DNA of 64,000 bases, from contig NZ_ATXU01000006.1 of NCBI RefSeq assembly GCF_000421845.1, positions 124,001 to 188,000 on the forward strand, read 5' to 3'. The position numbers and the translations under genes were made by a program. Position 1 is the first letter of the stretch; every line of letters starts with the position of its first letter. Source of the stretch: Leucobacter chironomi DSM 19883 (GTDB lineage: Bacteria > Actinomycetota > Actinomycetes > Actinomycetales > Microbacteriaceae). Positions 16,848 through 51,299 of the stretch are shown here, in pieces. The notes under the pieces were generated by a model that made no database searches, was not told the origin of the DNA, and worked only from the letters and a program-made list of their open reading frames with translations.

Positions 16848-17801
16848 TCAGGGGATGAGGCCGTGGCGGCGTGCGGCCGCGACTGCGGCGTGCCTGGTGG
16901 AGGCCTGCAGCTTCGACATGGCGGTCTTGACGTAGCTCTTGATCGTGCTCTCGGTGAGCCCGAGCGCGCGCCCGATCTCGGCATTGGTCCCGCCGAGGGC
17001 GGCGTGGGAAATCACATCGAGCTCGCGCGGCGTGAGGCAGACGCGGTCGGGGCTCGCACCGGCGCCGGCCGTGCGCGGCGCCGGTGCGGCGCGCGCGGTG
17101 TCGCCGGGCCGGGGGCCGTGCCCTGAGCCGTCCGGCGCGGTGCCGGGGGCGGCTCCCGTCTCGATCGTCGTGAGCCGACGGTCGACCTCGGCGAGGCGCG
17201 CCCGGAGTATCGGATCGGGGACGGCGGCGGCGATGCTGCGCAGCTCGGCGTGGCTGCTGCGCAGCGTCTCGAGCGCGGGCCCGGGCAGCGCATGATGCGC
17301 CTGCTGCTCGGCCGCGAGGCGCGCGGCGAGGCAGGCCGCGCGCTGCTCCACCTCGTCCTGCGTCCCGATCTCACGGGCGAGATCGGCGACCACGGCCGCG
17401 GCGGATCGGGCGAACGCCGATCCGGCGAGCGTCGCGTCGCGGGTGCCGCCGTAGAGCACCGCACGGATCTCCCCGTCGACGATCACGGGGTGCGCGAACA
17501 GCGCCACGATCCCCTCGCCGAGCACCTGCGCATCGTAGTCGTGGGTGATGTGGCGCGAGCGCCGGTAGTCCATCGTCAGCCGGGGTCGGTGCTCGGCGAG
17601 CGCCCGTCCTCCGAGGCCCCGTCCGGCCTGCACGCAGAGGCCGTGCAGGCTCAGCGTGCGATGCCCGAAGAGCGCCGTCACCGTCGCCGTTCCGCGCGCT
17701 TCGAAGCCGCCGAAGGCCAGGGGGAAGCGCGTCGCCGCGGCGAACTCGGCCACGGCGAGTTCGAGCAGGGTCTGCTGGGCCTGCGGGTCGAGTCGCTGCA
17801 T
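16848..17801 (-). CDS. LuxR-family regulator with GAF-like domain, RamA-like
   Basis: The 317-residue protein has a GAF-like N-terminal half (about 5-150; EGIVALFAHPVIVDGEIRAV) and a C-terminal LuxR HTH (about 255-315; LTPRELDVISHAALGGTNAE, then IGRALGLTESTIKSYVKTAM). A Pro/Ala/Gly-rich linker joins them. This layout is that of RamA, the acetate-metabolism regulator of Corynebacterium. It is divergent from prpE-DUF485-actP, and the shared promoter contains paired C-G5 / C5-G stretches like the RamA site. The start ATG at 17801 is preferred over a TTG at 17813. Assignment as RamA orthologue is an inference. Confidence 0.82.
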   Translation of the reverse strand: MQRLDPQAQQTLLELAVAEFAAATRFPLAFGGFEARGTATVTALFGHRTLSLHGLCVQAGRGLGGRALAEHRPRLTMDYRRSRHITHDYDAQVLGEGIVALFAHPVIVDGEIRAVLYGGTRDATLAGSAFARSAAAVVADLAREIGTQDEVEQRAACLAARLAAEQQAHHALPGPALETLRSSHAELRSIAAAVPDPILRARLAEVDRRLTTIETGAAPGTAPDGSGHGPRPGDTARAAPAPRTAGAGASPDRVCLTPRELDVISHAALGGTNAEIGRALGLTESTIKSYVKTAMSKLQASTRHAAVAAARRHGLIP

Positions 17802-17817
17802 CGGGACTACCAACTTT

Positions 17818-17883
17818 CGGGGGTATTGCCTGGGCTTCCCCCGTCAATAGCCTAATCCACGCACACAGCGACAGGGTTGTCGC
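17818..17883 (+). promoter_or_regulatory. prpE promoter with candidate RamA-type site
   Basis: CGGGGG (17818-17823) and CCCCCG (17838-17843) are separated by 14 nt and bracket a -35-like TTGCCT (17826-17831). TAGCCT (17848-17853) is a -10 candidate 16 nt further on. A second inverted repeat, GCGACA-GGGT-TGTCGC, spans 17868-17883 just before the SD. Confidence 0.55.
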
Positions 17884-17905
17884 GGAAGTTTCAAAGGAGA
17901 AATGA

Positions 17906-19885
17906 GTGAGCACAGCAACATCGATTCCCCGTCCCGGGCAGCACTATCCGGAGATCGTCGCGCGGAGCACCCGGGACCGCGACGCCTTCTGGCTCGAGGC
18001 CGCCGCGCGGGTGTCATGGACGACCCCGCCGACCCGAGCCCTCGAGGAGCGCAGCGCCACCGAGTGGCGCTGGTTCCCGGACGGACGGCTGAACGTCTGC
18101 TTCAACGCGCTCGACCGCCACGTCGAGGCCGGTCGTGGCGAGGAGACCGCGCTGATCTACGACTCCGCGATGACCGGTACCCGCGCCCGGATCAGCTACG
18201 CGCAGCTGCGCGACCGAGTGGCGCGCTTCGCCGGAGTCCTGCGCGATGCAGGCGTGGTCGTCGGCGACCGGGTGCTGATCTACCTGCCGATGACCCCCGA
18301 GGCAGTGGTCGCGATGCTCGCCTGCGCGCGCATCGGCGCGATCCACTCGGTCGTGTTCGGCGGATTCGCGGCCAACGAGCTGGCGGTGCGGATCGCGGAC
18401 GCCAAGCCCCGCGTGATCGTCACCTCCTCCGGAGGCCTGGAACCCCAGCGGGTCGTCGAGTACCTGCCGCTCGTGCACCGGGCCATCGAGATCGCGGGCG
18501 GCGCGGACTCCGGCGTCGAGACGGTCATCGTGCGCGATCGCGACGCGGTGCCGGGGTCGGCCGCCGACTTCGCGGATGAGGCGGGTGTCGCGTGGCTCGA
18601 CTGGGACGCGCTGGAGGAGCAGGCCGCGCCCGCCGATCCGGTGCCCGTGCGCTCCGAGGATCCGCTCTACATCCTCTACACCTCGGGCACCACGGGCAGT
18701 CCGAAGGGCGTCGTGCGCGACAGCGGCGGCTACGCCGTGGGACTCGGCTGGGCGATGCGCAACATCTACGACTTCGGTCCGGGCGACACGATCTTCACGG
18801 CGTCCGACGTCGGCTGGGTGGTCGGCCACTCGTTCATCGTCTACGGCCCGTTGCTCGCGGGCGGCACGACGGTGCTCTACGAGGGCAAGCCGGTGGGAAC
18901 CCCGGATCCCGGAGCGTTCTGGCGCATCCTGTCGAGCTACGGCGCGAAGATGCTCTCCACCGCTCCGACCGCGCTGCGCGCGATCCGGCGCGAGGATCCC
19001 GAGCTCTCCGAGCTCGCGAAGCACGACCTCTCCTCGCTGCGCGCAGTGTATCTCGCGGGAGAGCGGATGGATCCCGAGACCTGGCACTGGATCAACGACG
19101 GCCTCGGAGTGCCCGTCGTGGACCACTGGTGGCAGACCGAGACGGGGTGGATGATCTGCGCCAACCCCCTCGGGATCGAGACGCTGCCGGCGAAGGCGGG
19201 TTCGACGTCCGTGCCGATGCCCGGTTTCGACGTGCGCATCGTCGACTCGAAGGGCGCCGACATCACGGCGCCGGGCGTCGAGGGCAACATCGCGATCCGG
19301 CTGCCGCTCGCGCCGGGCGCGTTGCTGGGCATCTGGGGGAGCTCGCAGCGCTTCGTCGATTCCTACCTCTCGGCGTTCCCCGGCTACTACGCCACCGGCG
19401 ACGCCGGCCACTTCGACGAGGACGGATACCTCTTCGTGATGGGGCGGACCGACGACGTCATCAACGTCGCCGGGCACCGGCTCTCCACGGGATCGCTGGA
19501 GGAGGTGCTGACGCTTCACCCGGCCGTGGCCGAGTGCGCGGTGATCGGGGTGCACGACGAGCTCAAGGGGCAGCGGGCCGCCGGCTTCGTCGCGCTCAAG
19601 CACGGCGAGACCGTGGTGCGGGAAGAGCTCGCGGCCGAGCTCGTACGGCTCGTCCGCGAGCACATCGGACCCGTGGCCGCGTTCCGCGACGTGACGATCG
19701 TCGAGCGGCTGCCGAAGACCCGATCGGGCAAGATCCTGCGCAAGACCATGCGCCAGATCGTCGACGGCGAGGAGTACCGCGTGCCCGCCACCATCGAGGA
19801 TCCCGCCGTGATCGACGACCTCATCGCTGCGCTCGGTGACACCGTCTCGGCGCCCGCGACCCAGGCGGTGACGGTGCCGCGCTGA
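17906..19885 (+). CDS. prpE: Propionyl-CoA synthetase (acyl-CoA synthetase)
   Basis: The enzyme activates propionate (and acetate) to the CoA ester through an acyl-AMP. The 659-residue ANL-family protein has the ATP motif YTSGTTGSPKG, followed by VVRDSGGYAVGL, which is characteristic of PrpE. VVDHWWQTETGW and the C-terminal PKTRSGKILRKT, with the lysine subject to acetylation, are also present. The GTG at 17906 follows AAAGGAGA. It leads an operon with DUF485 and actP, so uptake and activation of small acids are co-expressed. A role as acetyl-CoA synthetase cannot be excluded. Confidence 0.9.
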   Translation: MSTATSIPRPGQHYPEIVARSTRDRDAFWLEAAARVSWTTPPTRALEERSATEWRWFPDGRLNVCFNALDRHVEAGRGEETALIYDSAMTGTRARISYAQLRDRVARFAGVLRDAGVVVGDRVLIYLPMTPEAVVAMLACARIGAIHSVVFGGFAANELAVRIADAKPRVIVTSSGGLEPQRVVEYLPLVHRAIEIAGGADSGVETVIVRDRDAVPGSAADFADEAGVAWLDWDALEEQAAPADPVPVRSEDPLYILYTSGTTGSPKGVVRDSGGYAVGLGWAMRNIYDFGPGDTIFTASDVGWVVGHSFIVYGPLLAGGTTVLYEGKPVGTPDPGAFWRILSSYGAKMLSTAPTALRAIRREDPELSELAKHDLSSLRAVYLAGERMDPETWHWINDGLGVPVVDHWWQTETGWMICANPLGIETLPAKAGSTSVPMPGFDVRIVDSKGADITAPGVEGNIAIRLPLAPGALLGIWGSSQRFVDSYLSAFPGYYATGDAGHFDEDGYLFVMGRTDDVINVAGHRLSTGSLEEVLTLHPAVAECAVIGVHDELKGQRAAGFVALKHGETVVREELAAELVRLVREHIGPVAAFRDVTIVERLPKTRSGKILRKTMRQIVDGEEYRVPATIEDPAVIDDLIAALGDTVSAPATQAVTVPR

Positions 19886-19931
19886 GCGGACCGTCGTCGT
19901 TCCCCGTATTCCCATGAGGCAAGGAGGCCCC

Positions 19932-20330
19932 ATGTCCAATGAACCCCGGGGGTTCGAAGAGACCACCCCCATCGACTACGAAGCATTTCAGGCACGGCCC
20001 GAGTTCCAGGAGTACAAGCACCGCTTCCGGCGCTTCGTGTTCCCAATCGCGGTGGCGTTCATGATCTGGTTCCTGCTCTACGTCGTCCTCGCCGCCTACG
20101 CGCACGAGTTCATGGCGCAGCCGATGCTCGGCCTGAACGTCGGGCTGTGGCTCGGCCTGGCGCAGTTCGTCACGACCTTCGGCATCACCATGTGGTACGT
20201 ATCCTTCGCGAACCGGAGGCTCGACCCCGCCACTGCGGCACTGCGCGCCGAGCTCGAAGACCTCGAGCACGCCGCGCCGGGCGGCCCGAACGGCAGCGGC
20301 ATCGCCGGTGCCGAGGGAGGTTCCCGATGA
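19932..20330 (+). CDS. DUF485 membrane protein, ActP partner
   Basis: The 132-residue protein has two transmembrane segments (about 35-58 and 68-92) with the DUF485 signature ending in TTFGITMWYVSFANRRLDP. Such proteins are almost always encoded next to acetate/solute:sodium symporters and are thought to support them. AAGGAGG precedes the ATG at 19932. It overlaps actP by 4 bp (ATGA). Confidence 0.92.
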   Translation: MSNEPRGFEETTPIDYEAFQARPEFQEYKHRFRRFVFPIAVAFMIWFLLYVVLAAYAHEFMAQPMLGLNVGLWLGLAQFVTTFGITMWYVSFANRRLDPATAALRAELEDLEHAAPGGPNGSGIAGAEGGSR

Positions 20331-21946
20331 ACGCGCAGATCCTCCATCTCGAAGCCGCAGCCGGTCAGCAGAACCCCGTGCTCAACATCGGGATCTTCCT
20401 CGCGTTCGTCGCGGTGACGATGGTCATCGTGATACGCGCGAGCCGGAACAACAAGAGCGCTGCCGACTTCTACGCCGGCGGACGCTCGTTCTCGGGCCGG
20501 CAGAACGGTCTCGCGATCGCGGGCGACTACCTCTCGGCCGCCTCCTTCCTCGGCATCTGCGGCGCTATCGCGATCAACGGATACGACGGCTTCCTCTACT
20601 CGATCGGATTCCTCGTCGCCTGGCTCGTCGCGCTGCTGCTCGTCGCCGAGCTGATGCGCAACACCGCGAAGTTCACCATGGCCGACGTGCTGTCGTTCCG
20701 GCTGCGCCAGAAGCCGGTGCGCATGGCCGCAGCGCTCACCACGCTCGCGGTGTGCTTCTTCTACCTCCTGGCGCAGATGGCGGGTGCCGGCGGGCTCGTC
20801 TCGCTGCTGCTCGGCATCGACGACAAGCTCGGGCAGTCGCTCGTGATCGCGGTGGTCGGCGTGGTCATGATCCTCTACGTGCTCATCGGCGGTATGAAGG
20901 GCACCACCTGGGTGCAGATCATCAAGGCCGTGCTGCTCATCGCCGGCGCCGCCGCGATGACCGTCTGGGTGCTCGCGCTCAACCGCTTCGATTTCGGCGC
21001 AGTGCTCGACGCCGCCGTCACCAACCCCGAGAACGCCAATGGCGCGGCGATCCTCGCCCCCGGCCTGCAGTACGGGGCGAATCCGATCGACTTCGTGTCG
21101 CTCGCGCTCGCCCTCGTGCTCGGCACCGCCGGCCTGCCGCACGTGCTCATGCGCTTCTACACGGTGCCCACCGCGAAGGAGGCCCGGCGCTCCGTGGTGT
21201 GGGCGATCTGGCTCATCGGCGTCTTCTACCTCTTCACGCTCGTGCTCGGCTACGGCGCCGCGGCGCTCGTCGGCCCGGAGACCATCGCGAACGCCCCCGG
21301 CGGGCAGAACTCCGCCGCTCCGCTGCTGGCGCTGCACCTCGGCGGACCGCTGCTGCTGGGCTTCATCTCGGCCGTCGCGTTCGCGACGATCCTCGCGGTG
21401 GTCGCGGGACTCACGATCACGGCTTCGGCGTCGTTCGCGCACGACATCTACAACAGCGTGATGAAGCGGGGCCAGGCCTCGGCCCGGCAGGAGGTGAAGG
21501 TCGCGAAGATCACGACGCTCGTGATCGGCGCTGCGGCGATCCTCGGCGGTATCGGCGTGCAGGGGCAGAACATCGCCTTCCTCGTGGCGCTCGCCTTCGC
21601 GGTCGCCGCATCCGCGAACCTGCCCACGATCCTGTACTCGCTGTTCTGGAGCCGCTTCACGACGCGCGGCGCCGTGTGGTCGATGGTCGGGGGCCTGCTC
21701 TCGGCGGTGCTGCTGATCGCGTTCTCCCCGGTCGTCTCCGGCGATCCGGCCGCCATGCTGGGCGACGGCGTGGACTTCGCGATCTTCCCGCTGAAGAACC
21801 CCGGGATCATCTCGATCCCGCTCGGCTTCCTGCTCGGGTGGCTCGGATCGATCACCGATCCCGGTCGCGAGTCGAAGCAGCTCGCCGCCGAGATGGAGGT
21901 GCGGGCGCTCACCGGTCACGGCGCGGAGCCGCCCGTGCAGCACTGA
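20327..21946 (+). CDS. actP: Cation/acetate symporter
   Basis: ActP takes up acetate and other short monocarboxylates with a cation. The 539-residue SSS-family protein has about 13 membrane segments. The family motif FYAGGRSFSGRQNGLAIAGD, then YLSAASFLG, lies near the N-terminus, and GLPHVLMRFYTVP is in the middle. The start is fixed by the 4-bp overlap with the DUF485 gene. Together with prpE it feeds propionyl-/acetyl-CoA. Confidence 0.93.
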   Translation: MNAQILHLEAAAGQQNPVLNIGIFLAFVAVTMVIVIRASRNNKSAADFYAGGRSFSGRQNGLAIAGDYLSAASFLGICGAIAINGYDGFLYSIGFLVAWLVALLLVAELMRNTAKFTMADVLSFRLRQKPVRMAAALTTLAVCFFYLLAQMAGAGGLVSLLLGIDDKLGQSLVIAVVGVVMILYVLIGGMKGTTWVQIIKAVLLIAGAAAMTVWVLALNRFDFGAVLDAAVTNPENANGAAILAPGLQYGANPIDFVSLALALVLGTAGLPHVLMRFYTVPTAKEARRSVVWAIWLIGVFYLFTLVLGYGAAALVGPETIANAPGGQNSAAPLLALHLGGPLLLGFISAVAFATILAVVAGLTITASASFAHDIYNSVMKRGQASARQEVKVAKITTLVIGAAAILGGIGVQGQNIAFLVALAFAVAASANLPTILYSLFWSRFTTRGAVWSMVGGLLSAVLLIAFSPVVSGDPAAMLGDGVDFAIFPLKNPGIISIPLGFLLGWLGSITDPGRESKQLAAEMEVRALTGHGAEPPVQH

Positions 21947-27278: not shown

Positions 27279-28103
27279 TCAGTCGCCGCGCAGGATCGCG
27301 AGGATGCGCAGGATCTCGACGTACAGCCAGATCAGCGTCACCATGAGGCCGAAGGCCGCCGACCAGGCCCACTTCTCGGGCACGCGGTTCTTCACACCGT
27401 TCTGGATGAGCTCGAAGTCCATGACGAGCGAGTAGGCGGCGAGCAGCACGGCGAGCGCGCCGATCGCGAGGCCGAGCCAGCCGGTGCGCAGCCCCCACGG
27501 GTCCTGGTTGACGCCGGTGAGCATGAGCACGAGGTTCACGACCGAGAACGCCAGGTAGCCGAAGATCGCGACCATGAAGATCTTGTTGAGCTTCGGGCTG
27601 GTGCGCACCTTGCCGCTGCGGAAGAGCAGCAGGGTCACGCCGAACACCGAGAGGGTGCCGATGATCGCCTGCGACACGATGCCCGCCCACTGCGCCTCGA
27701 AGATGCCCGAGATGCCGCCGAGGAAGACGCCCTGGAACACCGCGTACAGCACGATGAGGGGAACGCTCGGCTCCTTCTTGAAGGAGTTGACGAGGCCGAG
27801 CACCAGGCCGGCGATGGCCGCCGGCAGTGCGAGGATCGGCATGAACCAGCCGACCGCGCCGAAGACGAGCACGATGAGGAACAGCATCACCGTCTTGGAG
27901 ATGGTGTTCTCGTAGGTCATCGGACGGTCGGAGGGGGCGATGACGGGCGGCTGCTCGCCGCCGAAGCCCGCCTCGGCGACGGGCTCGTCGATGCCTGGCC
28001 GCTGCGTCTGCGCAGCGGGCTGATCGTAGATGCGGCGCAGCTCGTCAGCGGTGAGGGTCTTGCCGTTGAGTGCCGGGTTGTTGCTGAGAGCCGGGTTGCT
28101 CAT
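27279..28103 (-). CDS. Bax inhibitor-1/YccA-family membrane protein
   Basis: The 274-residue protein has a soluble N-terminus of about 80 residues (MSNPALSNNPALNGKTLTAD, conserved in actinobacteria) and seven membrane segments. The C-terminal DFELIQNGVKNRVPEKWAWS is the family hallmark and includes the Asp linked to pH-dependent Ca2+ leak in BI-1 homologues. The start at 28103 matches the conserved MSNPALS; AAAGGA lies about 10 nt upstream. Its physiological role here is unknown. Confidence 0.9.
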   Translation of the reverse strand: MSNPALSNNPALNGKTLTADELRRIYDQPAAQTQRPGIDEPVAEAGFGGEQPPVIAPSDRPMTYENTISKTVMLFLIVLVFGAVGWFMPILALPAAIAGLVLGLVNSFKKEPSVPLIVLYAVFQGVFLGGISGIFEAQWAGIVSQAIIGTLSVFGVTLLLFRSGKVRTSPKLNKIFMVAIFGYLAFSVVNLVLMLTGVNQDPWGLRTGWLGLAIGALAVLLAAYSLVMDFELIQNGVKNRVPEKWAWSAAFGLMVTLIWLYVEILRILAILRGD

Positions 28104-28212
28104 GCGTCGGAATCCTTTCCTGGCGTATGGGAACGGTTCCAGCTTATCCACAGGGGGCGCTTCCGTGGCTGTGACTCTGCCCGATCCGCCGCCCCTGTTC
28201 GCGCAGCGCGGA

Positions 28213-28218
28213 TAGGCT
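28213..28218 (+). promoter_or_regulatory. -10 box of the GDPD gene (leaderless)
   Basis: TAGGCT ends 6 nt before the ATG at 28225. Confidence 0.6.
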
Positions 28219-28224
28219 GGGCGC

Positions 28225-29241
28225 ATGGAGAGCCCGGATCCTGCGCCCATCGTCATCGGCCACCGCGGGGCACCGGGCTACCGTCCCGAGCACAGCGCCT
28301 CCTCGTACCGGCTCGCCTTCGAGCTCGGCGCCGACGCTGTGGAGCCCGACATCGTCGCGACGCGCGACGGGGTGCTCGTGGTGCGGCACGAGAACGAGAT
28401 CTCGGGCACCACCGACGTCGCGCAGCACCCCGAGTTCGCCGCTCGCCGCACCACCAAGACGATCGACGGCAAGCGCCTCACCGGATGGTTCACCGAGGAC
28501 TTCACCTGGGACGAACTCGCGACCCTGCGCTGCGCCGAGCGCCTGCCGCGGGTGCGCCCCGGCAATCGCGAGTTCGACGGCGCCGAGCCGATCCTGCGCC
28601 TGCGCGACGTGCTCGCGATCGTCGACGAGGAGAGCGCGCGGCTGGGGCGGCGGCTGCGCGCGGTGGTGGAGGTGAAGCACGCCGCCTACTTCGCGGGCGT
28701 CGGGCACGACCTCGGAGCGCTGCTGCTCGCCGAGCTCGCGGCCACCGGGTGGGATGCGGATCGCGAGCGTCTGGTGATCGAATCGTTCGAGCTCGGGGTG
28801 CTGGATCGGCTGCGCGCCGCCGGGGTGCGCGCCGATCTCGTGTTCCTCGCCGACCGCTTCGGGTCGCCGGCCGACGAGCCCGTCGACGGCGCCCCCTCGC
28901 GCAGCTTCGCCTGGTACCGCAGCGACCCCGGGCTCGAGCTGCTCGCGCAGCGGGTCGACGGGATCAGCGTCGCGAAGGGCAACCTGATCCGGGTGAACGC
29001 GCTGGGGCGCGCGATCGGCGCCACCGACCTCGTGGCGCGGGCGCACGCGCGCGGGCTGCTCGTCTACACCTGGACGCTGCGGCCCGAGAACCGCTACCTC
29101 AACGTGCGCCACCAGACCTCGCTGCGCGGGGCGGCGTGGGGTGACTGGCAGGCGGAGTTCGCGCTGCTGCTGCGGTCCGGCGTCGATGGCGTGTTCGTGG
29201 ACCACCCCGATCTCGGGGTGGCGATCCGCGACGCGCAGTAG
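28225..29241 (+). CDS. Glycerophosphodiester phosphodiesterase family protein
   Basis: The 338-residue TIM-barrel enzyme would split glycerophosphodiesters into an alcohol and glycerol-3-phosphate. The catalytic start is VIGHRGAPGYRPEHSASSY, with His, Arg and the following Glu. EPDIVATRDGVLVVRHE holds the metal ligands, and VFVDHPD closes the barrel. There is no signal peptide, so it is probably cytoplasmic. Translation likely starts on a leaderless mRNA. It is convergent with the asparaginase gene 35 bp away. Confidence 0.93.
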   Translation: MESPDPAPIVIGHRGAPGYRPEHSASSYRLAFELGADAVEPDIVATRDGVLVVRHENEISGTTDVAQHPEFAARRTTKTIDGKRLTGWFTEDFTWDELATLRCAERLPRVRPGNREFDGAEPILRLRDVLAIVDEESARLGRRLRAVVEVKHAAYFAGVGHDLGALLLAELAATGWDADRERLVIESFELGVLDRLRAAGVRADLVFLADRFGSPADEPVDGAPSRSFAWYRSDPGLELLAQRVDGISVAKGNLIRVNALGRAIGATDLVARAHARGLLVYTWTLRPENRYLNVRHQTSLRGAAWGDWQAEFALLLRSGVDGVFVDHPDLGVAIRDAQ

Positions 29242-39462: not shown

Positions 39463-40248
39463 TCAGCCGATGATCGGCAGGTCTATCCCGAGCTGCGTCG
39501 CGCCGGATCTGGCGAGCAGGAAGCCGATGATACCGAGGATCCACGCCGTGTTCTCCGCGCCCGTGCGCTGCATCCACCCGGTGAAGCGGCGCAGCGGGCG
39601 GTCGACAGAGCGTGCGGCGACCAGGCGTGCCGCCAGCAGGATGAGGGCGGGCAGGATCATCACGACGCAGTAGCCCGCGAGCATCGCGAAGCGGGCCGGC
39701 ATGCCGATGGGGGCGTCGGCCAGCATCGTCATGCCGATGAGGTAGGGGAGCATGCCCGCCACCTCGGCGAGGCCCGCGGCGAGGGCGACACCCACGACCG
39801 CGGCGCGACTCGTGCCGTCGGAGAGCAGGCGGTCGCGCCATCGCAGGATCCGCCCGCTCGTCTGAGCCGTCGGGCTGCTGTCAGGAAGCGCCGCGGCGGC
39901 CTTTCGCTTGCGCGCATCCGACACCCCGATCACGATGCCGCTCGCGAGCAGCGCGAGCCCGCCCGCAAGCAGCACCACCCGGCCGAGCGTCGAGCCGAGG
40001 AAATCGCGTCCCGCGTCGATGACGTTGACGAGCCCCAGCGTGAAGAGCACGCCGATCGCGAGGTAGAACAGCGTGATCGTGCCGAGGTACAGCAGCACGC
40101 GGGCGATACGGGGCCGCCCGGGTGCGATGAGGAAGAACAGGGGGATCAGCAGGGTGCCGACGCTGAGCCCGTCGAGCAGGGCGAGCAGCGCGAGGGCGAG
40201 GGGCAGCGGGACATCGGCGAGGATCGGAAGCTGGGCGGTGACGAGCAT
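39463..40248 (-). CDS. GAP/SfLAP-family membrane protein
   Basis: The 261-residue protein has about six membrane segments with the N-terminal pattern LALALLALLDGLSVGTLLIP, which fits the actinobacterial GAP family (related to Sap/SfLAP, glycolipid-addressing proteins, and LysE-type exporters). A polar loop lies at about 110-150. The start at 40248 (MLVTAQLP) is preferred; a GTG at 40296 is possible. It is divergent from the two-component system at 40356. The cargo is unknown. Confidence 0.7.
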   Translation of the reverse strand: MLVTAQLPILADVPLPLALALLALLDGLSVGTLLIPLFFLIAPGRPRIARVLLYLGTITLFYLAIGVLFTLGLVNVIDAGRDFLGSTLGRVVLLAGGLALLASGIVIGVSDARKRKAAAALPDSSPTAQTSGRILRWRDRLLSDGTSRAAVVGVALAAGLAEVAGMLPYLIGMTMLADAPIGMPARFAMLAGYCVVMILPALILLAARLVAARSVDRPLRRFTGWMQRTGAENTAWILGIIGFLLARSGATQLGIDLPIIG

Positions 40249-40355
40249 GCCGCCACTCTCGCGGCTGCGCTCCGCGCGCGCATCGGCGGAAGGCACGACA
40301 CCGCCTCATCCTTTGGCCGGAGACGGATGTCCGAGGCTGCTGCTTGGATGGGAGC

Positions 40356-41138
40356 ATGACCACTGAGACTGCGCAGCCCCGGGGGATGCTTCGAGTGATC
40401 GCCGATCGGCCGGCGGCGTTCGCGGGCAGCTACCTGCTGCTCGCGATCGTGCTCGCGGCGTTCGGGTGGTCGGGGTTGTGGAGCATGTTCTCGCTGCTGC
40501 CTGGCGGGGTATCGCCGTGGTGGGGGCTGGCGACGGCGGCGCCCGCCTGCGCGCTGGTGCTGCTGCGGCGTCGTGCGCCGCTGGTGGGCCTCATCGCCGC
40601 CGCAGTCGTCTTCGTCGCCGACCTGCTCACCGTCGGTGGGCTCGTGCCGCTGCTCGTGCTGCTCGAGCTCTTCCACGCGCGCACGGTTCGGCTCGCCCCG
40701 GCCCAGCGCAGGCGCATGCTCGGGGTGGTGATCGTGAGCACGCTCGCGCTCGTGGTGGCCGCCCTCGCGCTCTCCGACGATCCGCGAGAGGCGGTGATGG
40801 TGGGCATCCAGTTCGTCGGGCTCGCCGGGCTGACGTACTGGTATGCGAACTCGGTCGCGCAGTCGCGTGAGCTGGTTGCGCTCTACCGGCAGCGCGCCGA
40901 CGACACGGCCCGGCTCGCCGAGCTCGACCGCACCGCCGCGGTGCAGGGAGAGCGGGATCGTATGGCCCGTGAGCTGCACGACGTGGTCGCGGGGCACATC
41001 TCCGCGATCGCGATCCGCAGCGAGGCCGCGCTCGGACTGCCCGCGGGCGCTGCGGGCGAGACTCAGGAGCGTCGCGCCCTGCGTGCAATGCGCGACGCGA
41101 GCCTTGAAGCCCACGGAGCGCTGCGCACCATGATCTAG
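40356..41138 (+). CDS. Sensor histidine kinase, N-terminal part (membrane + dimerisation domain)
   Basis: This 260-residue product has four to five membrane segments (about 20-155) and a HisKA_3 domain with the phospho-acceptor His in ERDRMARELHDVVAGHIS. The frame stops at a TAG (41136-41138) right after LRTMI, exactly between the dimerisation and ATP-binding domains. Reading through the stop restores a normal NarL-type kinase of about 402 residues. The ATG at 40356 is chosen; a TTG at 40344 is less likely. No base is missing, so this is a nonsense change, a natural split or a sequencing error. Confidence 0.8.
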   Translation: MTTETAQPRGMLRVIADRPAAFAGSYLLLAIVLAAFGWSGLWSMFSLLPGGVSPWWGLATAAPACALVLLRRRAPLVGLIAAAVVFVADLLTVGGLVPLLVLLELFHARTVRLAPAQRRRMLGVVIVSTLALVVAALALSDDPREAVMVGIQFVGLAGLTYWYANSVAQSRELVALYRQRADDTARLAELDRTAAVQGERDRMARELHDVVAGHISAIAIRSEAALGLPAGAAGETQERRALRAMRDASLEAHGALRTMI

Positions 41139-41564
41139 GTGCTGCGGTCGGGCGAGCGCGATTTTCAGCTGCCGCCCGGCCGAGCCGGGCTGCCCGGGCT
41201 GGTCGAGGCCGCGAACGGCTCAGGGGTCGCCGCGACGCTCAGCGACCAGGGCGGCAGCGGGCTGCCCGCGCAGCTCGATCAGGCCGTGGGCAGCGTGGTG
41301 CGCGAGGCGCTCGCGAACAGCGTGCGCCACTCGTCGGGCGCCGATGTCGACGTGCGGCTGTCGAGGGGCGAGGGCGAGGTGCGCGTCGATGTGGTCTCGC
41401 GCGGTGGTTCCGCCCTCGCCAGCCCCGCGCTCATGGGCAGCGGCATGGGGCTCGAACTGCTGCGAGAGCGCGTGCGCGCGCTCGGCGGGGAGCTCTTCGC
41501 CGGGCCGGAGGGCGCCGGTGTGTGGGCGGTGCGCGCGCGACTGCCCGAAGAGGGGGCGGTGTGA
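41139..41564 (+). CDS. Sensor histidine kinase, C-terminal ATPase part
   Basis: The frame continues from a GTG directly after the TAG and encodes 141 residues. It carries the N-box VVREALANSVRHSSGADV and G-box GSGMGLELLRERVRALGG of a HATPase_c domain, so it is conserved, not decayed. No SD precedes the GTG; translation would need reinitiation at TAGGTG or stop read-through. The end overlaps the response regulator start by 4 bp (GTGA). Confidence 0.75.
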   Translation: MLRSGERDFQLPPGRAGLPGLVEAANGSGVAATLSDQGGSGLPAQLDQAVGSVVREALANSVRHSSGADVDVRLSRGEGEVRVDVVSRGGSALASPALMGSGMGLELLRERVRALGGELFAGPEGAGVWAVRARLPEEGAV

Positions 41565-42334
41565 AGGCGGGGGGCGCTGAGCGGACTGCGGCGGTGGAGC
41601 CGGGCCGGGCCGGGGCGGCGCCTCCGAGGGTGCTGCTCGCCGACGACCACGGCATGATCCGCGAGGGCCTCCGGATGATCCTCGAGACCCACGGTGTCGT
41701 CGTGGTGGGTGAGGCGGGTGACGGTGCGGCCGCGATCCGCAACGCGGCCGCACTGCGCCCCGACGTGGTGGTCATGGATCTGCGCATGCCGGGCATCGAT
41801 GGCGTCGAGGCCACCCGCCGCATCGTTGCCGAGGGCAGCGCCGAAGTGCTGGTGCTCACGAGCTTCGACGAGGACGAACTGGTGTTCGCGGCCATCCGAG
41901 CGGGAGCTGCGGGGTTTCTGCTGAAGACCACCGAGGCGGCTCCGCTCGTCGAGGCGGTGCGACGAGTGGCGGCCGGCGAGGGCGTGCTCGATCCCAGGGT
42001 GACCCGGCGCGCGCTCGCCGCATTCGCGGCGGTGTCGCCGGCGACCGAGCCGGCGCCGCTGCCCGGCCTCGAACAGCTCACGGCTCGAGAGCGGCAGGTG
42101 CTCGACGCGATGCGCGCGGGCCGCTCGAACGCGGGCATCGCGGCCCGGCTCGGCATCTCGGTGCCGACCGTCAAGACCCACGTCTCCAGTATCTTGGTCA
42201 AGCTCGGCGCTGAGAACCGCGCGCACGCCGCGGCGCTCGCGCGAGACGCGCAGCTTGATGCCGGGCTCGAGGCCGACGACGGCCCTCGCCCCGAGCGTCC
42301 CGCGAGCGGCGGCGGATCACTGCGCGACGGGTGA
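41561..42334 (+). CDS. NarL/LuxR-type response regulator
   Basis: The 257-residue protein has a receiver domain (about 23-140; acidic DD in LLADDHGMIREG, phospho-acceptor Asp in VVVMDLRMPGIDG, Lys in FLLKTTEA) and a LuxR HTH (about 165-225; LTARERQVLDAMRAGRSNAG, ISVPTVKTHVSSILVKLG). All receiver key residues are present. The GTG start overlaps the kinase end. Its targets are unknown; the ABC importer starting 110 bp downstream is a candidate. Confidence 0.93.
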   Translation: MKAGGAERTAAVEPGRAGAAPPRVLLADDHGMIREGLRMILETHGVVVVGEAGDGAAAIRNAAALRPDVVVMDLRMPGIDGVEATRRIVAEGSAEVLVLTSFDEDELVFAAIRAGAAGFLLKTTEAAPLVEAVRRVAAGEGVLDPRVTRRALAAFAAVSPATEPAPLPGLEQLTARERQVLDAMRAGRSNAGIAARLGISVPTVKTHVSSILVKLGAENRAHAAALARDAQLDAGLEADDGPRPERPASGGGSLRDG

Positions 42335-45114: not shown

Positions 45115-45140
45115 AGCGGCGCTGCCGCTGAGATGCGGAG

Positions 45141-45146
45141 TAAGCT
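45141..45146 (+). promoter_or_regulatory. -10 box of perM (leaderless)
   Basis: TAAGCT ends 7 nt before the ATG at 45154. Confidence 0.55.
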
Positions 45147-45153
45147 GCTGGCG

Positions 45154-47007
45154 ATGAGAGCCATAGTCACCGCCGTGGTCGCCGCGATCGAGGCGGCGGC
45201 CGTCGCCTTCGCCGGGCTCGCGGTGGTCGCGGTGCCGGCGCTGCTGCTCTGGATGGTGGTGTTCGGACTCGCGGCGGAGCCCGGCGCGGTGGTCGCCGGG
45301 ATCTCGGGTGTCTGGTTGCTGGCGCACTGGGTGCCGATGCGGCTCGAGATCGATGCCCAGGCTGCGTTGAGTCTCGGGCTCTCCCCGGAACCGCTCGGGT
45401 TCGCGCTCTCGCTCGCCCCGCTCGGGCTCACCCTCGTCACCGTGCTGCTCGCGGCGCGGGCGGGGTGGCGCTTCGGCGCGCGCGGCGGCACGGGCGCTGC
45501 GGGGGCGCTGGGGGGTCTGCTGGGCTTCGGGGCCGTGGCCTTCGGGGCGGCGACCTTCGCCGCTCCGCTCGCGGTGTGGCCGCTGTGGCTGGCGGTGCTG
45601 GTGCCGGCGCTGAGCTACGGGGCCGTCTCGGCTGCGGCGTTCGTGGTGCGCGCCGCTCGTGACGACCACGGCTGGTGGCGTGCGTGCACGCGTGCGGTGC
45701 AGCGCGCGGTGGAGCGGCTGGGCGCCTCGCACGCGGCGGCGGTGCTGCCGGTGCGTGCGGCCGAAGCGGTGCGCCTCGCCACGGCCGTGCTGGTCTCCGT
45801 GCTGGGGCTCGCGTCGTTCGTCTTTGCAGTCGCCGTGGTCGTGGGCTACCCGCACGTGATCGCGCTGACGCAGGGCCTGCACCTCGATCCTCTCGGTTCG
45901 GTGCTCGTGTTCCTGGTGCAGCTCGCGCTGCTGCCGGTCGCGATCGTCTGGAGCACGGCGTGGCTGACCGGGGCGGGCTTCGCGGTGGGGGCCGGCAGCT
46001 TGGCGACCCCGTTCGAGGCGCTGCTCGGTCCGCTGCCCGCACTGCCGATCTTCGGGGTGATCCCCCAGGGGTGGGGAGCGCTCGGCGCGCTCGCTCCCGC
46101 CGCGATCGTGCTCGTCGGCGTGGTGGTGGGCGTGCTCTTCGCCCGCAGCGCCCGGCAGCGGCGCTCGACGTGGCTCGCGGCGCTCGTCACGCCCGTCGTC
46201 GCAGCGGCGCTCGCGGGGCTCGCGGTGGCGGCGCTCTGCGCGCTCGCCGCCGGGTCGCTCGGACCCGGCCGGCTCGACACCGTCGGCGCCGAGCCGTGGC
46301 TGACGGGAGGTCTTGCGGCGGCAGAGCTGGGCGGAGGCCTGCTCGTCGGCGTCGTCGCGGCACGGATCGATCTGGCTGGGGTGCGGATCTCGCTGCCCGA
46401 CGCGGTGCGTGCGGTGAACGGGCGAGTGCGCGGAGCGCGTCCCGCAACGGGGGAGTCGCGGTCCGGGGCGCTGCCGCTCTTGAGCGAGTCCGACGATGAG
46501 ATCCTGGGGTCCATCCCGCAGGATGCGGCGGATCCGGTCGACGGCGAGACCGTCGACCTCTCGGAGGCGAGGGCGGCGGAAGCTCGCGGGAAGGCCGACG
46601 CGGAGCACCCGCGCGGGGCCGGGGCGGCGCTGCGGCGGTGGATGTCGCGGGACGCCGGCACCGTCGAACCCGCCGTAGATGCTGCAGCCGATCTCGACGG
46701 TGCCCAAGACGCCGATGCCCAGGAAACCGCCGCGCTCGACACCGCCGACCTCGACACCGCCGCGCTGGACGCCGCCGACCTCGACACCGCCGCCGACCTC
46801 GACACCGCCGCGCCCGACGGCTCCGCGGACACGAGTGTCGCGCCCGCGGACGCCCCAGCCGAGGGCGGCCGGAGCGACGCCCCCGCGCCCGACGACACCG
46901 CGCACGACACCGAGGCGCTGCTGCGCGCGTACTCCTGGGATGAGCGGGAGTCGCAGGACGGTGAGCCCGATCCGCCCCGCCGACCCTGGGGCCGTCGCAA
47001 GCGCTGA
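45154..47007 (+). CDS. perM: DUF6350 membrane protein, PerM-like
   Basis: The 617-residue protein has about ten membrane segments in the first 420 residues and a long acidic cytoplasmic tail. The family corresponds to mycobacterial PerM, a membrane protein tied to cell division, which also lies between sucCD and purNH. The tail (about 470-617) holds repeats of the type LDTADLDTAALDAADLDTAA and ends PWGRRKR. The start at 45154 is chosen by the -10 box; an ATG at 45133 is possible. The symbol rests on family and synteny. Confidence 0.8.
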   Translation: MRAIVTAVVAAIEAAAVAFAGLAVVAVPALLLWMVVFGLAAEPGAVVAGISGVWLLAHWVPMRLEIDAQAALSLGLSPEPLGFALSLAPLGLTLVTVLLAARAGWRFGARGGTGAAGALGGLLGFGAVAFGAATFAAPLAVWPLWLAVLVPALSYGAVSAAAFVVRAARDDHGWWRACTRAVQRAVERLGASHAAAVLPVRAAEAVRLATAVLVSVLGLASFVFAVAVVVGYPHVIALTQGLHLDPLGSVLVFLVQLALLPVAIVWSTAWLTGAGFAVGAGSLATPFEALLGPLPALPIFGVIPQGWGALGALAPAAIVLVGVVVGVLFARSARQRRSTWLAALVTPVVAAALAGLAVAALCALAAGSLGPGRLDTVGAEPWLTGGLAAAELGGGLLVGVVAARIDLAGVRISLPDAVRAVNGRVRGARPATGESRSGALPLLSESDDEILGSIPQDAADPVDGETVDLSEARAAEARGKADAEHPRGAGAALRRWMSRDAGTVEPAVDAAADLDGAQDADAQETAALDTADLDTAALDAADLDTAADLDTAAPDGSADTSVAPADAPAEGGRSDAPAPDDTAHDTEALLRAYSWDERESQDGEPDPPRRPWGRRKR

Positions 47008-49981: not shown

Positions 49982-50502
49982 TGGGGGAAGGCTTCGACGT
50001 GCTGCTCATCGACGGGCGTTCGGGATCCGGCAAGACCTCGCTCGCCGCGCGGATCGTGCGCGAGCTGCGCGGGGCGGGCGCCGAGCCGCAGCTGCTGCGC
50101 GTCGAGGACCTCTACCCGGGCTGGGACGGGCTCGCTGCGGGATCCGGCGCTCTCTCCGAGGTGCTCGACGAGGGGCGCTACCGCCGGTACGACTGGTACG
50201 CCGGCGCCTTCGCGGAGGAGCACCGCATCGACCTCCGCGCGCCGCTCGTGATCGAGGGCTGCGGTGCGATCACGGTTCGCAACCTCGCTGCGGCGCGGCG
50301 CTGGGCCGTGCGGGCGGTGGGGGAGCGCGCGGTGGTGCGCAGCCTCTGGCTCGACTGCCCAGACGGGGTGCGCCGATCCCGAGCCCTCGCCCGCGACGGT
50401 GAGAGCTACGCGCCCCACTGGGATCGCTGGGCCGCTCAGGAGGACGCGCTCTACGCCGTGCACGAGCCGTGGCGCTTGGCCGACGAGACGCGGCTCTCCT
50501 GA
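49981..50502 (+). CDS. P-loop kinase-like ATP-binding protein in the thiamine operon
   Basis: The 173-residue protein starts with Walker A LLIDGRSGSGKTSLAARIV and has VEDLYPGWDGLAAGSGAL and LVIEGCGAITVRN, as in uridine-kinase-like nucleoside kinases of actinobacteria. It has no ABC signature, so it is not ThiQ. It starts on the last base of the thiP stop, so it is co-translated under the TPP riboswitch. That context suggests a role in thiamine handling, for example phosphorylation after uptake, but this is only inference. Confidence 0.75.
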   Translation: MGEGFDVLLIDGRSGSGKTSLAARIVRELRGAGAEPQLLRVEDLYPGWDGLAAGSGALSEVLDEGRYRRYDWYAGAFAEEHRIDLRAPLVIEGCGAITVRNLAAARRWAVRAVGERAVVRSLWLDCPDGVRRSRALARDGESYAPHWDRWAAQEDALYAVHEPWRLADETRLS

Positions 50503-50540
50503 CGCTCGGGCCGCGGCTCTCCCTCTCCTTGTCCGTTGTC

Positions 50541-50605
50541 TCGGATCTCTCCTGTTTTTCGGATGGAGACCTGGGGGATCCATCCGAAAAACAGGAGAGA
50601 TCCGA
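50541..50605. terminator. 27-bp perfect palindrome after the thiamine operon
   Basis: Positions 50541-50567 pair perfectly with 50579-50605 around an 11-nt loop. The arms contain T5 and A5 tracts. It begins 38 bp after the stop and is the likely terminator, though far longer than needed. Confidence 0.7.
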
Positions 50606-50674
50606 AATACGGGATAGGCGCACGACGAGGGTGCGGGACGAGCGCCCCTGGCCGCTCAGCAGCGCAGCGCCGGG

Positions 50675-50680
50675 TAGACT
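50675..50680 (+). promoter_or_regulatory. -10 box of purN (leaderless)
   Basis: TAGACT ends 7 nt before the GTG at 50688, again in TAGACTGG context. Confidence 0.62.
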
Positions 50681-50687
50681 GGTCTGC

Positions 50688-51299
50688 GTGCTCAAACTCG
50701 CGGTTCTGATCTCCGGCGGCGGCAGCAACCTGCAGGCGCTGCTCGAAGCGGCGGCGGATCCCGGGTTCCCCGCGAAGATCGTGTGCGTCGGCTCCGACAC
50801 CGACGCCCCCGGCCTCGCCCACGCCGAAGCCGCCGGCGTGCCCGCCTTCGTGGTGCGCCCCCGAGACTACGCCTCGCGTGAGGAGTGGGGGCAGATGCTG
50901 GCCGCGGCGATCCAGGAGCACGGCGTCGGCACCGGCCCCGAGCCCGGCCTCGTCGTCAGCGCCGGCCTCATGCGCATCCTGCCCGCAGGCTTCGTGCGCG
51001 AGTTCTCCCCGCACCTCATCAACACCCACCCGGCGCTGCTGCCGCTCTACCCCGGCGCCCACGCCGTGCGCGACGCGCTCGCCGCCGGTGCGACCGAGAC
51101 CGGCGTCACCGTGCACGTCATCGACGAGGGCGTCGACACCGGCCCCGTGCTGCGCCAGGCCCGCGTCGACATCCGCGACGGCGAGAGCGAGGCAGAGCTG
51201 CACGAGCGCATCAAGCAGCTCGAACGCCCGCTGCTCGTGCAGACCGTGCGCGACATCGCGCTCGGCGAGCTCGAGCTGCCCGCTCAGGCCCACGCCTGA
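50688..51299 (+). CDS. purN: Phosphoribosylglycinamide formyltransferase
   Basis: PurN formylates GAR with 10-formyl-THF, step three of purine synthesis. The 203-residue protein has [19 protein letters not shown] (phosphate loop), the catalytic [15 protein letters not shown] (Asn and His) and [13 protein letters not shown] (Asp). The GTG at 50688 is set by the -10 box and the conserved N-terminus. purH follows after a 182-bp gap. Confidence 0.96.

Follow-up and report, generated by a model that had tools for sequence, protein, structure and literature searches.

Several systems are described in which the phospho-acceptor and catalytic domains of a sensor kinase reside in different proteins. 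In the available sections of PMC3591291 and PMC7656254, two distinct proteins, CheA3 and CheA4 of Rhodobacter sphaeroides, were shown to work jointly, and two others, Hik36 and Hik43 of Synechocystis, interact in a two-hybrid assay. The same portion of PMC3591291 cites work on EnvZ in which HisKA and HATPase, split from one another and supplied on separate polypeptides, stayed active in vitro, and counts in SMART 1556 of 42417 HisKA proteins without a HATPase domain. As far as these sections go, EnvZ and the natural split kinases make a two-piece kinase chemically possible. The locus examined here is like the CheA3/CheA4 and Hik36/Hik43 pairs, as those sections present them, in that phospho-acceptor and catalytic domains lie on separate reading frames; it is unlike them in that a single codon breaks one gene, this in one genome, and that the second piece has no start signal of its own. 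It also resembles the NarL/DesK-type sensor kinases, sharing their HisKA_3 and HATPase_c make-up, adjoining a NarL-type regulator and matching by profile the DesK structures 3gig and 7ssj, which could be aligned to the region of the stop, whereas its frame, unlike theirs, is interrupted at residue 261. With recently nonsense-mutated genes (young pseudogenes) it has in common a premature stop confined to one strain, intact relatives and no decay, and there is no difference of note. We consider it likely that an ordinary one-piece NarL/DesK-type kinase gene was hit very recently, and in this strain only, by a nonsense change close to where its phospho-acceptor domain ends.

The window, by which we mean the whole stretch of 64,000 nucleotides of Leucobacter chironomi DSM 19883 that was analysed, belongs to contig 6 of a draft genome of 2.96 Mb in 27 contigs, and the copy of the locus in the whole genome is identical in sequence to that in the window. 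Translation from the ATG at 40356 runs for 260 codons to the in-frame TAG, and 141 further codons lead from the GTG that directly abuts it to a TGA at 41562-41564, the frame being open on either side (Table 1). Pfam places a HisKA_3 match in residues 199-260 of the first piece (36.1 bits), with the phospho-acceptor His, and a HATPase_c match in the second (31.7 bits); the ATP-binding domain is present, yet it sits on a separate reading frame after the TAG and not on the polypeptide that carries HisKA_3. The second piece also contains what, on visual comparison with the known motifs, we take to be the N and G boxes. The first-pass annotation had described an in-frame TAG in an otherwise unbroken frame, a His before it, an ATP-binding part after it beginning with GTG, and a downstream half coupled to the response regulator, and all of this was borne out, the coupling by the overlap of the regulator start with the kinase stop.

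Table 1. Features of the interrupted kinase locus and its neighbours, in window positions.
Feature	Position	Strand	Remarks	Evidence
SfLAP-family membrane protein, divergent	39463..40296	-		Pfam PF11139, 89.6 bits
Kinase first piece: membrane part and HisKA_3	40356..41138	+	260 aa, ends at in-frame TAG	Translation, Pfam
In-frame TAG at residue 261 of the uninterrupted frame, within the HisKA_3 span	41136..41138	+		
Kinase second piece: HATPase_c (ATP-binding)	41139..41564	+	141 aa if GTG 41139 is the start	Pfam
NarL-type response regulator (Response_reg and GerE), intact	41561..42334	+	Start GTG 41561, overlaps kinase stop	Pfam

The occurrence of the stop among relatives was surveyed in a genus set of 54 genomes, the strain's own included. 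Some match was found in 53 of the 54, and 20 hold this kinase, namely the strain itself and 19 others with orthologues at 53-92% identity; the remaining matches, with E values of 1e-30 or weaker, were taken as putative paralogues. Read in frame, none of the 19 orthologues has an internal stop, including that of the closest genome (G022, 92% identity). One pattern scan of genome contigs likewise found no stop at the junction in any of 64 named loci, a set that overlaps with the 19. A shared or ancient split was rejected, since no relative examined carries one. Other flagged stops were also set aside: the TAG that seemed to interrupt a kinase in another genome (locus L029 of G018) is the end of that gene, and the stops in L048, L050, L067 and L071 all read as natural ends. 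Plasmid relatives were limited to short matches at 3 places in 2 records. One of the 64 loci, the relative in Microbacterium sp. Se63.02b (L076, 3001-4099), is frame-shifted near its start; either this kinase has been broken there a second time, independently, or the sequence is in error.

A public protein search, in which 8000 candidates were scored and 708 matched, brought a closer comparison. Among the best 120 of the 708 matches, a full-length protein of 402 aa (P0001) differs from the window frame at position 261 only, the 401 other positions being identical. It comes either from another strain or from another assembly of the same strain, and an intact copy exists either way. It belongs to a 90% cluster of 22 members; proteins of G022 and other near species may be among them, so the figure does not count the kin of this strain. 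A second protein within the same best 120, of 260 aa (P0004), is letter-for-letter the same as the first piece and stands in a cluster of 1 member. A premature stop is here accompanied by a near-identical intact copy, as in genes with a recent nonsense change; this explanation, one of three offered by the first-pass annotation, is well supported by the 19 uninterrupted orthologues and by P0001.

An intact protein that is otherwise the same would also be seen if the strain's kinase gene were whole and the TAG came from an error in base calling or assembly, or from the consensus of a mixed population. The sequence is a draft in many contigs with an estimated contamination of 1.19, and the event is isolated. 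In the comparison with G022, 53 of its genes were predicted in 80 kb and 33 of them matched the window at >65% identity, genes missed by the filter, the response regulator among them, being left out. A stop lies inside the match for only two of the 33, the kinase and g42, and that of g42, which precedes the start predicted for its window counterpart, reads as a difference in start choice; the kinase therefore has the only clear internal stop, which marks it as an isolated event. On the other hand, substitution errors at the consensus level are less usual in draft genomes than indels, and in other respects the quality of the genome is good (completeness 99.67). Taking both sides into consideration, we regard an error or a mixed population as unlikely, though a real contender; the most fitting description of the locus is that of a NarL/DesK-type kinase gene that recently acquired a nonsense change, or of a sequence error resembling one.

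To the first-pass annotation the stop lay exactly between the two catalytic domains, a description that does not fit the domain limits. In P0001, where HisKA_3 and HATPase_c are carried on one polypeptide and the phospho-acceptor His is present, Pfam gives a HisKA_3 span of 199-266, and the AlphaFold2 model, used solely for helix limits (mean pLDDT 85.8, about 60-72 in this region and around the stop), predicts a helix at 237-265, the second of the HisKA_3 domain. A stop at residue 261 is consequently inside the domain and cuts the last turns of its phospho-acceptor and dimerisation part. In 43 wider relatives M259-I260 before the stop are nearly invariant and L263-R264 after it are invariant, while residue 262 is Val in 38 and Leu in 5. 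Nor does the weight implied for a stop at a domain border hold. In the intact G022 gene 65 of the 412 codons are one substitution from a stop and 8 of these fall in residues 261-305, so that about one random nonsense change in eight would hit that stretch; the place is unremarkable.

A true two-piece kinase, another of the explanations that had been put forward, would terminate at the TAG, restart at the adjoining GTG and reassemble from its pieces as the EnvZ domains do when supplied apart. It has in its favour a legal start codon directly after the stop, two intact pieces with ordinary dN/dS, and the activity in vitro of EnvZ split between HisKA and HATPase, reported in the portion of PMC3591291 mentioned above. 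The GTG itself argues against it. The residue that it codes for is Val in all 19 orthologues, 17 of which also use a GTG codon, so that it is a conserved internal Val codon and was not acquired as a start. No Shine-Dalgarno sequence was found before it, the duplex energy with the 16S tail being -1.2; the median of 2000 random places is stronger (-4.0), and so are all of the 11 further starts that were compared, which range from -3.7 to -11.4. Given that some real starts nearby are weak too (-3.7), these values make poor re-initiation at GTG 41139 likely and say nothing firmer; as judged from the sequence, stop-start re-initiation at a low level is possible. The break, moreover, falls within the HisKA_3 span and the predicted helix and not in a linker, and the split is common to no relative examined: neither the 19 orthologues nor the 64 loci keep it, the former and P0001 being in one piece. 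The second piece lacks a start signal of its own. Positive support for a working two-piece kinase was not found in these comparisons, and we hold it to be very improbable. Even slighter is the probability that a single nonsense change has just created such a kinase, re-initiating at a conserved Val codon and reassembling on the membrane, in which event the locus would show a split kinase at the very moment of its origin.

The age of the stop bears on how the intact second piece is to be read. Relative to G022, dN/dS is 0.245 for the first piece and 0.201 for the second, against 0.353 for the response regulator and 0.191 for the SfLAP gene; the values of both pieces are unremarkable and agree with the remark in the first-pass annotation that the downstream half shows no decay. 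Relaxed selection on the second piece was rejected, as it is not seen in this comparison. These ratios show no more than that the gene was ordinarily constrained during almost the whole period since the divergence from G022. Residue differences assigned by branch (first/second piece) number 7/3 on the strain's own branch, 10/2 on that of G022 and 8/5 unassigned, which gives no excess of changes on the strain's own branch, in counts that are small and dependent on the alignment (10 second-piece differences here, 7 in the dN/dS comparison). With an intact copy identical at 401 positions, the stop has existed too briefly for decay to be measurable. An undecayed second piece does not speak for function, and a working split gene would equally show no decay.

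The remaining explanation, programmed or suppressor read-through of the TAG that would yield some full-length kinase, gains from a frame that is open past the stop. Against it, no tRNA with a CTA anticodon was found among the 45 typed by ARAGORN, out of 46 RF00005 matches in this draft, from which a tRNA may have been missed; the 46th match is weak, lies beside a tRNA-Pro gene, is not called by ARAGORN and holds no CTA. A suppressor tRNA was rejected on these grounds, none that reads TAG having been found. TAG also serves as the stop codon of 9 of the 46 other window genes predicted (10 of 47 when the kinase first piece is counted), the 47 having been predicted with a purpose-made codon-position filter that missed some genes, the response regulator included. 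It is an ordinary terminator in this genome, and the stop in the kinase is not conserved. Read-through thus found no support, and we give it scarcely any credence; natural mis-reading of the TAG at a low level is possible as far as the sequence shows.

With a recent nonsense change as the preferred reading, the cell would make a membrane-bound fragment that has the His and is without the ATP-binding domain. Such a fragment should be unable to autophosphorylate, this activity being probably abolished, and the ATP-binding part would be made poorly or never, because nothing seen would allow efficient re-initiation. The response regulator has a strong Shine-Dalgarno sequence of its own before GTG 41561 (duplex energy -11.4), so it is probably still made, and would be deprived of its cognate phosphate donor. 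The significance is most likely ordinary, that of a fresh knock-out (or a sequencing slip) rather than of a new two-piece kinase. If matters are as they seem, one sensor has been lost at strain level, a routine event, and the strain is a natural kinase-minus one, of use mainly for studying a regulator that is still intact. Should the two pieces work together, the locus would show a split kinase arising in one step; nothing found points there.

The gene neighbourhood is conserved. In all 19 genus relatives the kinase is flanked by the regulator and the divergent SfLAP gene, and the whole SfLAP-kinase-regulator block (window 39463-42334) is kept, which suggests that the SfLAP protein and the two-component system belong together. 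The unit is thus a two-component system that has been conserved and is probably linked to the SfLAP protein.

Other differences from G022 were observed along the window. In the reverse comparison 36 of the 47 window genes matched G022, and two of them have stops in G022 within about the first fifth of the match; the counterparts of 27279-28256 and 50469-51299 with these early stops reflect either start-choice differences or breaks in G022. The region 16848-21946 encodes a LuxR-type (GerE) regulator, an acetyl-CoA-synthetase-like AMP-binding enzyme and a sodium:solute symporter (SSF), and nothing longer than 300 bases was matched to it in the 80 kb of G022 that were aligned; it is probably a metabolic block that was gained, lost or moved. 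A large membrane protein encoded at 45133-47007, beside ABC transporter genes, shows 67% identity to G022 and a dN/dS of 0.418, and diverges from its G022 counterpart far more than the other eight genes compared.
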